A stretch of 64,000 nucleotides of DNA from Streptomyces griseus subsp. griseus. Its GTDB lineage: Bacteria > Actinomycetota > Actinomycetes > Streptomycetales > Streptomycetaceae. The DNA is taken from contig NZ_CP032543.1 of assembly GCF_003610995.1 (NCBI RefSeq), forward strand, positions 4,278,001 to 4,342,000. The letters are read 5' to 3'. A program made the position numbers and the translations under genes. Below are positions 37,827 to 44,512 of the stretch, piece by piece. Position 1 is the first letter of the stretch; each line of letters starts with the position of its first letter. The notes beneath the pieces were generated by a model that was not told the origin of the DNA, made no database searches, and was given only the letters and a program-made list of their open reading frames with translations.

Positions 37827-37933
37827 GCGCGTTCACCCGCTGTCATCGGACGCCTCTCTCGTTCCGCCCCGCGCTGCCGCCGAGCCCTCTCCTGGTGGGG
37901 GCCGGTGCTCCGCCCCAGATTCTCACAGGGACG

Positions 37934-37972
37934 AATACTTACCATTCCAATACTTACCAAGCGGTCGGTATT
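37934..37972. promoter_or_regulatory. Operator candidate between TetR and GH3 genes
   Basis: AATACTTACCA occurs twice (37934-37944 and 37949-37959), 15 bases apart. The second copy starts an imperfect 24-base palindrome to 37972 whose outer arms AATAC and GTATT are perfect and whose centre reads TACCAAGCGGTCGGTA. This is the most AT-rich stretch nearby and should also contain the promoters. Confidence 0.65.
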
Positions 37973-38014
37973 GAGCGTACGGTACTGCGGAGTGCCGTCG
38001 TGAAAGGAACTCCC

Positions 38015-40297
38015 GTGGGCCTCCTGCCGCCGTACCTCGACCCCGCGCTCCCCGTCGCGGACCGGGTCACCGATCTCCTGGGCCGCATGACGCTGCCCGA
38101 GAAGGTCGGCCAGATGCTCCAGCTCAACGCCAAGGAGGGCGTGCGGCACCTCGTGGAGGACCTGCACGCGGGGTCGATCCTGCACGCCTCGCCCGAGCGT
38201 GTGCTGGAGGCCGCCGCCCTCACCGAGAAGACCCGGCTGCGCATCCCGCTCCTCGTGGCGGAGGACTGCATCCACGGGCACTCCTTCTGGGAGGGCGCGA
38301 CGATCTACCCGACGCAGCTCGGCATGGCGGCCACCTGGGACACCGGCCTGGTGGAGCGGATCGCGCGGGCGACGGCGGTGGAGGTCGCGGCGACCGGCGT
38401 GCACTGGACGTTCTCGCCGGTCCTCTGCATCACCCGGGACCTGCGGTGGGGCCGGGTCAGTGAGACCTTCGGCGAAGATCCTCATCTCATCGGCGAGTTG
38501 GCCTCCGCCATGGTGCGCGGCTACCAAGGTGAGGGGCTCGGCGACCCGACCGCGATCCTGGCCTGCGCCAAGCACTTCGCCGGGTACTCCGAGACCCAGG
38601 GCGGGCGGGACGCGAGCGAGGCCGACATCTCCCGGCGCAAGCTGCGCTCATGGTTCCTGCCGCCGTTCGAGCGGGTCGCCAAGGAGGGGTGCCGGACGTT
38701 CATGCTCGGCTACCAGTCCATGGACGGCGTGCCGATCACCGTCAACGACTGGCTCCTCGGCGAGGTGCTGCGCGGCGAGTGGGGCTACACCGGCACGCTG
38801 GTCACCGACTGGGACAACGTCGGCCGCATGGTGTGGGAGCAGAAGATCTACGCCGATTACGCGCAGGCCTCGGCGGCGGCGGTCCGCGCGGGCAACGACA
38901 TGGTGATGACCACGTCGAAGTTCTTCGAGGGCGCCCAGGAGGCGGTGGCGGAGGGCGCGCTCACGGAGGCGGAGATCGACGCCGCCGTACGCCGCATCCT
39001 GACGCTCAAGTTCGAGCTCGGCCTCTTCGAGAACCCCCGCCACCCCGACGCCGCCCGGCAGGCCGAGTTCATCGGCAGCGCGGAGCACGCCGCCCTCAAC
39101 CTGGAGGCGGCCCGGCGCTCGCTGGTGCTGCTGACCAATGACGGCACGCTGCCGCTGGCGGGCGGTCTGGAGCGGGCCGGGGAAGGGCGGGCCACGGGGC
39201 CCGGTCCTCGTACCGTGGCCGTCGTCGGTCCCAACGCTCATGACGCGCAGACCCAGTTGGGGGACTGGGCGGGCTCCTCCGGGCAGGCGGACTGGCTCCC
39301 CGACGGGCAGCCGCGCGCCATGATCCGTACCGTCCTCGACGGCTTCCGCGACAAGGTGCCCGCCGACTGGACCGTCTCGTACGCCCCCGGCGCCCGCATC
39401 CTGGACGTCGGGCCCGACCCGGAGGGGGAGTTCTTCCCCGACGGGCAGCCCCGCCCCGAGGTCGTCGTCCCGGCCGCGCCGGACCCGGCCCTGATCGGTG
39501 AGGCGGTCGCCGCCGCGGAGGCCGCCGACCATGTGGTCGCGGTCGTCGGTGACCGGATCGAGTTGATCGGTGAGGGCAAGTCGACCGCCACCCTCGAACT
39601 CGTCGGCGACCAGGTCGCGTTGCTGGACGCACTGGCGGCGACCGGCAAGCCGCTGGTCGTCGTGGTCATCAGCTCCAAGCCGCTGGTGCTGCCGCCGTCC
39701 GCGCTCGGTGCGGCGGCGATCGTGTACGCGGCCAACCCGGGGATGCTCGGCGGTACGGCGGTGGCGGAGCTGCTTCTCGGGCTGATCGAACCGACCGGCC
39801 GGCTCCCGCTCTCCTTCGCCCGGCACGCGGGGCAGCAGCCGACGTACTACAACCAGGTGCGTGGCCAGCACGGCACGCGGTACGCGGACCTCACCCAGAA
39901 CCCGGCGTTCGCATTCGGGGAGGGGCTGAGCTACACGACGGTCACGTACACCGGTCTGGAGCTGCTGACGGCGGTCGTCGAGCCGGACGAGACCGTACGG
40001 GCGCGGGTGACGCTCACCAACTCCGGTGCCCGGCCCGCGCTGGAGACGGTCCAGGTGTATGTGAGTGACACCGTGACCTCGGTGACCTGGGCGGAGAAGG
40101 AGCTGAAGGCGTACGAGCAAGTGGCCCTGGAGCCGGGGGAGTCACGCCAGGTGGTGATCGACCTTCCGGTCGCAGCATGCACGTTGGTGGACGCGAAGGG
40201 GCGGCGCGTGGTGGAGCCGGGGCGCTTCGAGCTGCTGGTGGGGCCGTCGTCGCGGGACGAGGTGCTGCTGCGGGCGGAGTTCACGGTCAAGGGGTGA
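38015..40297 (+). CDS. Glycoside hydrolase family 3 (beta-glucosidase/xylosidase type)
   Basis: A 760-residue cytoplasmic enzyme (no signal peptide). Domain order is as in three-domain GH3 beta-glucosidases: N-terminal TIM barrel (about 1-345) with substrate residues KHFAGYSETQGGRD and nucleophile Asp265 in LVTDWDN; a second alpha/beta sandwich (about 360-600) with LVLLTNDGTLPL; and a fibronectin III-like domain (about 650-755, PALETVQVYVSDTVTS). It should release terminal sugars from oligosaccharides taken up by the cell. GTG 38015 follows AAAGGA by 6 bases. Control by the divergent TetR gene is likely. Confidence 0.93.
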   Translation: MGLLPPYLDPALPVADRVTDLLGRMTLPEKVGQMLQLNAKEGVRHLVEDLHAGSILHASPERVLEAAALTEKTRLRIPLLVAEDCIHGHSFWEGATIYPTQLGMAATWDTGLVERIARATAVEVAATGVHWTFSPVLCITRDLRWGRVSETFGEDPHLIGELASAMVRGYQGEGLGDPTAILACAKHFAGYSETQGGRDASEADISRRKLRSWFLPPFERVAKEGCRTFMLGYQSMDGVPITVNDWLLGEVLRGEWGYTGTLVTDWDNVGRMVWEQKIYADYAQASAAAVRAGNDMVMTTSKFFEGAQEAVAEGALTEAEIDAAVRRILTLKFELGLFENPRHPDAARQAEFIGSAEHAALNLEAARRSLVLLTNDGTLPLAGGLERAGEGRATGPGPRTVAVVGPNAHDAQTQLGDWAGSSGQADWLPDGQPRAMIRTVLDGFRDKVPADWTVSYAPGARILDVGPDPEGEFFPDGQPRPEVVVPAAPDPALIGEAVAAAEAADHVVAVVGDRIELIGEGKSTATLELVGDQVALLDALAATGKPLVVVVISSKPLVLPPSALGAAAIVYAANPGMLGGTAVAELLLGLIEPTGRLPLSFARHAGQQPTYYNQVRGQHGTRYADLTQNPAFAFGEGLSYTTVTYTGLELLTAVVEPDETVRARVTLTNSGARPALETVQVYVSDTVTSVTWAEKELKAYEQVALEPGESRQVVIDLPVAACTLVDAKGRRVVEPGRFELLVGPSSRDEVLLRAEFTVKG

Positions 40298-40350: not shown

Positions 40351-41292
40351 TCACGGTGAGCGGTGGGTGTGGGAGGGGTGCTCGGAGGGGGTCGGGGGCC
40401 CGGGTGGTTCGGAGGGTTCGGGGGCCTCGGGTGGTGGTGCGGGGGTGCGGGCGGCGCGCTGGCCGAGCACGACGCCGCACAGCGTGAGCACCAGGCCGAC
40501 GACCTGTCGGCCGGACAGGCTCTCCCCGGCGAGCAGAAGCCCCAGCAGCACGCCCGTCACGGGGTTGAGCAGTCCCAGCAGCCCGACCGTCCCCGCCGGC
40601 AGGTGCTTCAGCCCCAGGAACCAGGCGGCGAAGGCGACGGCGGTCGCCACCACGGCCAGGTAGGCGAAACCGAGGAGCGCGGGGCCGTCGAGGGCGGGCG
40701 GCGCGCCCTCCACCAGGGCCGCGGCCGGCACGAGCAGCAGCCCGCCGCCGAGCAACTGCCAGCTGGTGGCGGCGAGTACGTCCACCTCGCCGCTCCACCG
40801 CTTGGCCAGGACGTAGCCGTACGAGGACATCGCCATCGCCCCGACGGAGGCGAGCACCCCGATCGCGTCCACCGAACCGGCGGCCGTGAACACCATCAGG
40901 CAGACGCCGCCGACGCCGGTCAGGGCACCGGCGAGGTGCTTCCGGCCGGGCCGCTCACCGACCAGCGGCCAGGCGAGCATCATCATGAACAGCGGTGCGA
41001 GGGCCATGATGATCGACGCCAGGCTGGTGGGGAGGCGCTGCGCCGCCACGTAGACGAGGGCGAAGAAGCCGCTCATGTTCAGCGCGCCGAGCACCAGGGA
41101 CTTCCACCACCAACTCCCCTGCGGCAGCTTCCGGCAGAGGGCCAGGAGGAGGAGCCCGGCGGGAACCGCCCGGAAGGCGGCGCCGTACAGGGGGTGGCTC
41201 TCGGGCAGATACTCGCGCGTGACGAAATAGGTCGTGCCCCAGGCCACGGGAGCCACCGCCGTGACCAGCGACCATTTCAGATTACCTTCCAT
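40351..41292 (-). CDS. EamA/DMT family transporter
   Basis: A 313-residue membrane protein with ten helices in two EamA repeats. WSLVTAVAPVAWGTTYFVTR opens the first, GVLASVGAMAMSSYGYVLAK the second, and NPVTGVLLGLLLAGESLSGR is the conserved end. The cytoplasmic tail is Pro/Glu/Ser-rich. It probably exports amino acids or other small metabolites. The start ATG (MEGNLKW) lies inside the palindrome TTCCATGGAA and has no Shine-Dalgarno sequence, consistent with a leaderless mRNA. A divergent MarR gene starts 20 bases away. Confidence 0.9.
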   Translation of the reverse strand: MEGNLKWSLVTAVAPVAWGTTYFVTREYLPESHPLYGAAFRAVPAGLLLLALCRKLPQGSWWWKSLVLGALNMSGFFALVYVAAQRLPTSLASIIMALAPLFMMMLAWPLVGERPGRKHLAGALTGVGGVCLMVFTAAGSVDAIGVLASVGAMAMSSYGYVLAKRWSGEVDVLAATSWQLLGGGLLLVPAAALVEGAPPALDGPALLGFAYLAVVATAVAFAAWFLGLKHLPAGTVGLLGLLNPVTGVLLGLLLAGESLSGRQVVGLVLTLCGVVLGQRAARTPAPPPEAPEPSEPPGPPTPSEHPSHTHRSP

Positions 41293-41326
41293 GGAAGCTA
41301 TTATGCCTTCCATGGAAGGTAATTTC
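41282..41326. promoter_or_regulatory. Twin palindromic operators containing both divergent start codons
   Basis: Two copies of CTTCCATGGAAG (41287-41298 and 41308-41319) lie on the same DNA face, 21 bases centre to centre. Outwards both continue as ATTAC or its complement, so the whole 45-base segment is itself nearly palindromic. The ATG in the middle of each copy is the predicted start of EamA (minus strand) and MarR (plus strand). Confidence 0.8.
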
Positions 41327-41899
41327 TGGGATGCGGCTCCGGAAGACGCGGAACCCGACCACGTGGACCGCATCCAGGCAGAGTGGGCGCGGGAGCGCCC
41401 GGACGTGGACGTCTCCCCGCAGGCCGTCATCGGCCGCCTGCACCGCCTGGGCCACCTCCTGACCGCCCGTCTCGACGTGGTCTACGCCGCCCACGGCCTG
41501 TCGGAGGGCGAGTTCGACGTCCTGGCCACACTGCGCCGGGCCGGGGCACCCTTCGAGCGGGCACCGGGCGCGCTGGCCGCGCACACGATGGTCACCACGG
41601 GCGCGATGACCAAACGGATCGACCGCCTCCAGCGTGCCGGCCTGGTGACCCGGCGCCGTTCGGCGGCGGACGGCCGGGGGCGGGTGGTCGCGCTCACCCC
41701 GGCGGGCCGGTCGCTGATCGACCGGGCGTTCACCGAGCACATGCACAACGAGCGGAACCTGCTGGACGCGCTGGAGCCGGAGGAGGCGGCGCAGTTGGAG
41801 CGACTGCTGACCGTGTGGCTCGGACGGGTGGAGTCGCCGGGCGGGCCCGCTACGCCTCCCCGAACACCCGGCGCGCCAGCTCCGCGCGGAGCCGGGTGA
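41312..41899 (+). CDS. MarR family transcriptional regulator
   Basis: A 195-residue regulator. IGRLHRLGHLLTARLDVVYA begins the dimerisation helix, LSEGEFDVLATLRRAGAPFE and TMVTTGAMTKRIDRLQRAGL form the winged helix, and RRSAADGRGRVVALTPAG is the wing with the DxR motif. The ATG at 41312 gives MEGNFWD; the EamA protein also starts MEGN because both starts lie in copies of the same palindrome. GTG 41362 is a shorter alternative. It should repress the divergent EamA gene and itself. Confidence 0.9.
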   Translation: MEGNFWDAAPEDAEPDHVDRIQAEWARERPDVDVSPQAVIGRLHRLGHLLTARLDVVYAAHGLSEGEFDVLATLRRAGAPFERAPGALAAHTMVTTGAMTKRIDRLQRAGLVTRRRSAADGRGRVVALTPAGRSLIDRAFTEHMHNERNLLDALEPEEAAQLERLLTVWLGRVESPGGPATPPRTPGAPAPRGAG

Positions 41900-43624: not shown

Positions 43625-44512
43625 ATGACGCAGCAGCGTACGAACGAGACCGGGGGCGGTGCCGGGACCCGGGCCGTGACCGGCAGCGAAGCCGGGCCCA
43701 TGGCCGTGACCGGGAGGGAAGCCGGGACCCCGGCCGTGACCCGGAGGGAAGCCGGGCCCGGGGCCCGGGCCGTGACCGAGACCGCTGCCGTCACCGTGCA
43801 TCGCCTCGATCTCGGCTTCTTCGTGCGGCCCGCAGTCGAGGCCGGTGGGCCGCACCCCCGAGTCGAACCGGTGCTCGCCTACCTGGTGGAGCATCAGCGC
43901 GGACGGCTCCTCTTCGACACGGGCATCGGCGCCGGGGACCCGGGGGCCGACGCGCACTACCGGCCCCGGCGACGGCCGTTGCAGGCTGCACTGGCCGCCG
44001 TGGGTACGGCACTTGAGGACGTGAGCGTCGTCGTCAACTGCCACCTCCACTTCGATCACATCGGTGGCAACCCCCTGCTGGCGGGCGTGCCCGTGTTCGT
44101 GCAGGAGACCGAGCTGGCGGCCGCGCGCAGGGGCGGGTACACCATCGACGCCCTCGTCGACTTTCCCGGTGCCCGCTACGAGGAGCTGTCCGGCGAGGCC
44201 GAGATCTGGCCCGGGGTCTGGATCGTGCCGACCCCCGGGCACACCGATGGCCACCAGTCGCTCGTCGTCCGGCAGGGGGACGGGGCGGACGGGACGGTCG
44301 TCGTGCTCGCCGGGCAGGCCCACGACTTCGCCTCGCACCACGCCTCCCACGAACTCGCCCGCCGTGCCGTACGCGACGGGGTGGCGGAGCCGCTTCCGCC
44401 CTACCCGCCCTGGATGGACCGGCTGGCCGCGTTCGATCCGGGGCGGGTGTTCTTCGCGCACGACTGCTCGGTGTGGGAACCGGCGTCGGGGCGGGTCAGC
44501 CCTCCGCGGTGA
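43625..44512 (+). CDS. MBL-fold metallo-hydrolase with N-terminal tandem repeats
   Basis: A 295-residue metallo-beta-lactamase-fold protein. NCHLHFDHIGGNPLL is the H-x-H-x-D-H metal motif, TPGHTDGHQS gives the third His and FFAHDCSVW the last. VLAYLVEHQRGRLLFDTGIG is the usual strand. Closest in style to N-acyl homoserine lactonase/quorum-quenching-like lactonases, but the substrate is unknown. The first ~50 residues consist of three 10-residue repeats (AVTGSEAGPM, AVTGREAGTP, AVTRREAGPG) encoded by 30-bp units and are probably disordered; an internal ATG or GTG after the repeats could be the true start. It overlaps the convergent SGNH gene by 17 bases. Confidence 0.85.
   Translation: MTQQRTNETGGGAGTRAVTGSEAGPMAVTGREAGTPAVTRREAGPGARAVTETAAVTVHRLDLGFFVRPAVEAGGPHPRVEPVLAYLVEHQRGRLLFDTGIGAGDPGADAHYRPRRRPLQAALAAVGTALEDVSVVVNCHLHFDHIGGNPLLAGVPVFVQETELAAARRGGYTIDALVDFPGARYEELSGEAEIWPGVWIVPTPGHTDGHQSLVVRQGDGADGTVVVLAGQAHDFASHHASHELARRAVRDGVAEPLPPYPPWMDRLAAFDPGRVFFAHDCSVWEPASGRVSPPR

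Follow-up and report, generated by a model that had tools for sequence, protein, structure and literature searches.

Why should the start codons of two divergent genes each lie at the centre of a palindrome? The question is raised by a locus of Streptomyces griseus subsp. griseus contained in a stretch of 64,000 nucleotides (contig NZ_CP032543.1, positions 4,278,001 to 4,342,000), hereafter the window. The gene for an EamA/DMT transporter of 313 amino acids (eamA, pecM-like; 40351–41292, minus strand) and that for a PecS/UrtR-type MarR regulator of 195 amino acids (marR; 41312–41899, plus strand) are arranged back to back, and both are predicted to be leaderless, from 41292 and 41312, respectively. 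As read from the sequence, CTTCCATGGAAG is present at 41286–41297 and 41307–41318, with 21 bp from centre to centre, and the eamA ATG (41292–41290, minus strand) and the marR ATG (41312–41314, plus strand) each stand at the centre of one copy. With their flanks the two copies form mirrored arms of 17 bp each (41281–41297 and 41307–41323) on either side of a 9-bp spacer, CTATTATGC, and MEGN is the N-terminus of both proteins. We treat the copies as the cores of two predicted operators, O1 (41283–41300), centred on the eamA start codon, and O2 (41304–41321), centred on that of marR.

The exact 12-mer has only these two copies among the 7,238,194 bases of the genome, with none in the reversed control, and a looser 18-mer gave no third site at one mismatch or fewer in the whole genome of the window. 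The original prediction of twin palindromes, 21 bp apart and with both ATGs at their centres, is thus confirmed by coordinates and by genome-wide uniqueness. Chance or a dispersed repeat was discarded as their origin, since the genome holds only two copies and relatives keep them. The accompanying statement that neither gene has a Shine-Dalgarno sequence also stood: upstream of marR no more than 3/6 bases match AGGAGG, and upstream of eamA no such sequence was seen by eye.

The regulator carries a winged helix-turn-helix MarR domain (PF12802, E 1.8e-12; PF01047, E 1.3e-9; both over the cut-off), while the divergent transporter has an EamA domain (PF00892, E 1.4e-41). The nearest solved relatives of the MarR protein are MftR, PecS and HucR. 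MftR and PecS were the top Foldseek matches, at 44–49% identity, with 46–49% for MftR and 29–32% for HucR. PecS/UrtR proteins have an additional helix on the N-terminal side of the MarR core; here a predicted helix at residues 17–28 (block mean pLDDT 64–72, a modest confidence) precedes helix 37–60, and the alignment of the protein with MftR and PecS begins at residues 15/16. Residues W20, D73, R106 and R118 of HucR have a role in its response to urate. Their equivalents in the printed alignment are W25, D69, R102 and R114, which are conserved in 93, 93, 92 and 93 of 93 rows, respectively. By its sequence, the locus is a divergon of the PecS/PecM type (UrtR family). Among named organisms, its MarR has its nearest relatives in S. 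microflavus and S. cyaneofuscatus. SAV4189, at first taken for the nearest studied Streptomyces MarR, was set aside; according to PMC6036246 its operator differs (TTGCCYKHRSCAA) and its target belongs to the MFS.

Both predicted -10 boxes are formed by the spacer CTATTATGC together with its first neighbours. TATTAT of the marR promoter (41299–41304, plus strand) and CATAAT of the eamA promoter (41305–41300, minus strand) overlap by 5 bp, and each ends 7 nt before its ATG. A predicted -35, TTCAGA (41276–41281, plus strand), lies 17 bp from TATTAT, and the pair is the sole sigma-70-like site found by the promoter scan in 41100–41500 (shuffle mean 0.0). The consensus scan of this region reported the plus-strand promoter only; the minus-strand eamA promoter, whose -10 departs from TANNNT, was absent from it, and neither the scan nor inspection by eye gave a clear minus-strand -35.

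A comparison with relatives suggests that these boxes are placed for transcripts beginning at the start codons. TANNNT precedes the eamA start by 6–8 nt in 65/78 loci and by exactly 7 nt in 58/78, and the weaker NANNNT does so in 78/78 and 71/78, respectively (raw counts). Upstream of eamA, position -8 is T in 79/79 loci and position -12 is A in 91%, counting from the start. For marR, TANNNT was found 6–8 nt before an in-frame start in 92/93 rows (the exception being L054), a figure partly built in, as the start was picked among several in-frame candidates using the -10; as a control, 10 of 3284 ATG/GTG codons further downstream in the same loci are preceded by TANNNT at this distance. From the conserved spacing we conclude that both mRNAs are probably leaderless.

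The locus set used for O1 comprised the window and the 80 loci closest to it in MarR similarity, 81 in all, and was not selected by the palindrome. In 79/81 loci a palindrome, O1, has the ATG/GTG of the divergent gene at its centre (CAT in 67, CAC in 12), as counted by a script that also accepted TTG centres and up to 2 mismatches; 72 of the 79 match perfectly at the 10 defined bases. The uncounted loci are L057, which has lost O1, and L073, in which the eamA frame is broken after the GTG in O1. The divergent gene is a relative of EamA, 55–100% identical to that of the window, in 78/79 loci (78/81 by automatic count); the frame in L015 gave no match to EamA. All 78 eamA genes have an in-frame ATG/GTG at the O1 codon, the runner-up between -20 and +20 codons being codon 16 (GTG, 44/78). 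Since an in-frame ATG/GTG/TTG also occurs within 60 nt upstream in 64/78 loci, a start in O1 is favoured rather than forced. O2 accompanies O1 in all 79 loci, at a distance of 21 bp in 68, 20 bp in five, 22 bp in three and 23 bp in three. Its centre dinucleotide varies freely across them; the centre of O1 is always CAT or CAC, which is what a start codon there would lead one to expect. On this comparison of sequences, it is the start codon that fixes the centre of O1, and something shared by O1 and O2 that fixes the arms. The search for CTTCCNNGGAAG outside the control regions of the 80 relative loci found no copy in 465,876 bases.

Codon choice shows at which level this constraint acts. Codon 2 of eamA is GAA in 78/78 genes, a codon that accounts for 24% of the Glu codons later in the same genes. 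When codon 3 is Ala it is GCT in 45/52 (3% elsewhere), and when codon 4 is Asn it is AAT in 28/33 (9% elsewhere). The rare synonyms at codons 2–4 therefore argue for constraint on the DNA of the eamA start region, not on the protein; a protein-level constraint on MEGN is ruled out by the same codons. The palindrome had been claimed to force both proteins to begin with MEGN, which is true of the window, but among relatives no more than ME (or VE) is set by the core, and residues 3 and 4 vary.

The arrangement at marR is of a different kind. Its start lies inside O2 in 6/93 rows, namely the window, L003, L004, L083, L056 and L085, and the MarR proteins of L004/L083 and of L056/L085 are identical, so that the six represent four distinct sequences. 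In 77/93 rows the start is at O1+45 to O1+49, that is, about 20 bp further on. The six rows sit on one tree fork (support only 94/61), nested among rows with the more distant start. Larger starred sets of the tree that include the six contain 4 or 5 additional rows too, and the tree count of one change compares the six only with five rows of the third-palindrome kind. By this phylogenetic placing of sequences, a marR start inside O2 is a derived state. The usual place of the marR -10 is the outer edge of O2; in the lineage of the window it is in the O1-O2 spacer, where it overlaps the eamA -10. The exact mirrored pair was found in 5/392 genomes of the genus, in three of which marR starts in O2. 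The two with a marR start further on are L084 and L087 (genomes G283 and G385). In L015, L078, L080, L116, L117, L126 and L132, and by reading in L147, marR starts in a third palindrome. The search of orthologues, set beforehand as a check on the original prediction, thus upheld one half of it, a palindrome on the divergent start, but found the marR start in O2 to be confined to the six rows. Likewise, the leaderless pair with a repressor over both starts is well supported by sequence comparison as regards the -10 spacing of both genes and the position of O1, but not as a widespread arrangement at marR. We conclude from the loci compared that a pump start inside the operator is the general rule, and that both starts in twin palindromes are a lineage-specific state.

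Some individual loci depart from these arrangements. In L077 the only in-frame marR start before the conserved domain is the O1 ATG on the strand opposite eamA; TAGAAT lies 7 nt upstream of it, and both start codons would share one CATG. L035, L041 and L081 have three to four tandem CTTCC..GGAAG palindromes in 21-bp steps between eamA and marR.

A gene-blind search was made for the twin-palindrome pattern, which requires a CAT/CAC-type centre, so that a start in O1 is partly selected in the loci that it returns. In the class, 10/296 genomes matched, the window's own included, with none in the reversed control; 10/10 of these places adjoin a relative of the window MarR, eight of them with EamA. 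In the genus, 64/392 genomes matched (control 0), with 66 places as counted from the listing. Thirty-eight of the 66 were examined (L101–L103, L105, L087 and the window; L116–L142; L143–L147), and 37 of these adjoin the MarR. The group L116–L142 is next to MarR in 27/27 and has EamA in 26/27; a script placed the start in O1 in 24 of these, and reading did so in L129 and L133. Divergent frames unrelated to EamA may also start in O1. Those of L097 (MFS, by Pfam), L098 (Rv2466c-like, by Pfam) and L120 (Rv2466c-like, by likeness to L098) do so, and in L147 the longer MFS-like frame, recognised by eye, starts there, a later start being possible. In these sequences the palindromic site accompanies the regulator even when the divergent gene changes (EamA, MFS, Rv2466c-like). 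In L098 and L120 this type of MarR and its operator stand divergent to a frame resembling Rv2466c, a mycothiol-dependent nitroreductase. The exception among the 38 is L143 (G350:C1:4776633), a twin palindrome, CTTCCATGGAAGGTTCGAACCTTCCATGGAAG, with a 20-bp period and no MarR, upstream of frames that by eye are HNH- and SSB-like.

No wider regulon emerged in the window's own genome, where allowing 2 mismatches added 6 places, fewer than the control gave (20). Nine of its 12 other MarR matches (L107–L115) have no site at one mismatch or fewer. Three paralogues of the window MarR in the same genome (G000:C1:2855941, 6571977 and 4065390), with 36–42% identity, are without the operator.

We think it quite likely, on these sequences, that the locus works as a PecS/PecM-type divergon in which MarR represses its own gene and the EamA pump through O1 and O2, placed on both leaderless starts. 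A dimer of this UrtR-family (PecS/MftR/HucR-like) protein would be the repressor of marR and of the efflux pump. In this reading the ligand, the pump substrate, binding, both transcription starts and leaderless translation are inferred, and what the sequences themselves show is the anatomy of the DNA, its conservation, the association of the sites with the regulator and the protein family. Two dimers would occupy O1 and O2, 21 bp or approximately two helical turns apart, and the 9-bp spacer between them would hold the overlapping, opposed -10 boxes, each 7 nt from an operator-centred ATG. With both mRNAs beginning at or beside the A of AUG, the bound repressor would lie over each transcription start and on either side of the shared -10, so that both genes would be off together. 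A ligand, perhaps urate or a related molecule as in this family, would release it, after which RNA polymerase might load in just one of the two orientations at a time.

Other explanations have to be weighed against this. The palindromes could be ordinary PecS/MarR operators next to conventional promoters, with transcripts that start upstream, or with another start codon, and an overlap with the ATGs that is incidental. In-frame upstream starts would permit this, both for eamA (in the 64/78 loci given above) and for marR (ATGs at 41291 and 41303), and some close relatives are annotated from such a marR start, P0001 beginning with MPSMEGN. However, the O1 codon alone is ATG/GTG in 78/78 eamA genes, the distance from -10 to ATG is conserved for both genes, and the contrast between CAT/CAC centres in O1 and free centres in O2 across 79 loci is as expected of a start codon, so that we regard conventional promoters as unlikely.

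That the palindromes are bound by a different regulator from the MarR encoded beside them seems to us very unlikely. L143 is an instance of the twin palindrome without such a neighbour, but a MarR relative is found beside 10/10 class-wide places and 27/27 further genus loci, the site persists next to divergent genes that are not EamA relatives, and the genome of the window has no further site at one mismatch or fewer. Most improbable of all is control at the RNA level, in which the mirrored arms, being mutually complementary over 17 bp (41281–41297 and 41307–41323), would form a hairpin in read-through transcripts and hide the starts. Each 12-mer is itself palindromic, which makes most of that complementarity automatic; mRNAs beginning at the ATG would hold only half a palindrome; and the 21-bp period (68/79) suits helical phasing.

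Returning to a divergon repressed by MarR through O1 and O2, we incline towards a more general proposal, with somewhat less assurance. In the actinobacterial UrtR branch, operator, transcription start and start codon may coincide in one 12-bp element that travels with the regulator across targets. In the lineage of the window this element would be doubled, two operators on leaderless starts clamping one bidirectional -10.

Several parts of this picture have parallels elsewhere. The PecS/PecM divergons of Dickeya, Agrobacterium, Vibrio and Pectobacterium likewise have a UrtR-type MarR divergent from an EamA/DMT pump, with palindromes in the shared control region, and two 18-bp palindromes of PecS type lie in the shared eamA-marR region here. 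Burkholderia MftR and Deinococcus HucR belong to the same UrtR family as the window MarR. An MFS pump is the target of MftR, which the MFS target of L097 resembles. The PecS/PecM-type pair of S. coelicolor, which we take to be SCO2647/SCO2646, presumably also has a pump partner. The regulator of that species is described in the available text of PMC9739823 as PecS-like and urate-responsive. In A. fabrum, two overlapping PecS sites extend over the pecM promoter and into the coding region of pecM, according to the portion available of PMC12288460. The start codons are 20 bp apart in the window, compared with approximately 96 bp in A. fabrum and 200 bp in V. vulnificus, going by the fragments described for them. 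The window also differs from these two in that each start is the centre of a predicted operator, the two genes seem to be leaderless and their predicted -10 boxes overlap. Set against the PecS site of V. vulnificus (TATCTTTATATTAAGATA, as given in part of PMC6391409) over the first 6 bases of the half-site, the half-sites of the window match at 5/6 in three cases and at 4/6 in the fourth.

In E. coli bidirectional promoters of the acrA/acrR type, overlapping -10 boxes drive divergent transcripts, as may be the case in the window, and acrR is an autorepressor beside an efflux operon, as marR may be beside eamA. Common start distances in such promoters are 18, 10 and 23 bp with small variations; the 20 bp predicted here is near the 18-bp class. 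The description of shared -10 promoters, in the sections available of PMC12825309 from which these distances come, makes no mention of both starts as operator centres or of two-way leaderless mRNAs. Leaderless transcripts make up about 21% of primary starts in S. coelicolor, where a TANNNT -10 is present at 80.4% of starts (PMC4895711, available portion). A leaderless MarR gene is also on record, crtR of C. glutamicum, for which the available portion of PMC5401885 places the required motif upstream of crtE, overlapping the crtE promoter, and not on the crtR start codon.

The divergon, the protein family, leaderless genes, shared -10 promoters and PecS sites reaching into pecM coding sequence (A. 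fabrum, PMC12288460) are already known. In the open-licence literature we found no report of operator, transcription start and start codon coinciding across actinobacteria and targets, and no relevant match to CTTCCATGGAAG as an operator. If the proposal holds, a leaderless gene would allow one set of bases to serve as both regulatory and coding DNA, with measurable effects on the protein in the form of a fixed ME/VE start and rare codons. It would also be a compact case of a repressor on the transcription start and, in the lineage of the window, a bidirectional promoter clamped by repressor. The sharp 18-bp signature could help to locate PecS-type targets in actinobacteria and to correct the annotation of start codons.

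Two of the neighbouring genes may be recorded as well. At 37895–40297 (plus strand), convergent with eamA, is a gene whose GH3 product scores above the NCBIfam exo-beta-1,3/1,6-glucosidase cut-off, and at 43625–44512 (plus strand) is one for a metallo-beta-lactamase-fold protein, the best NCBIfam match of which, below the cut-off, is an AiiA-type lactonase.
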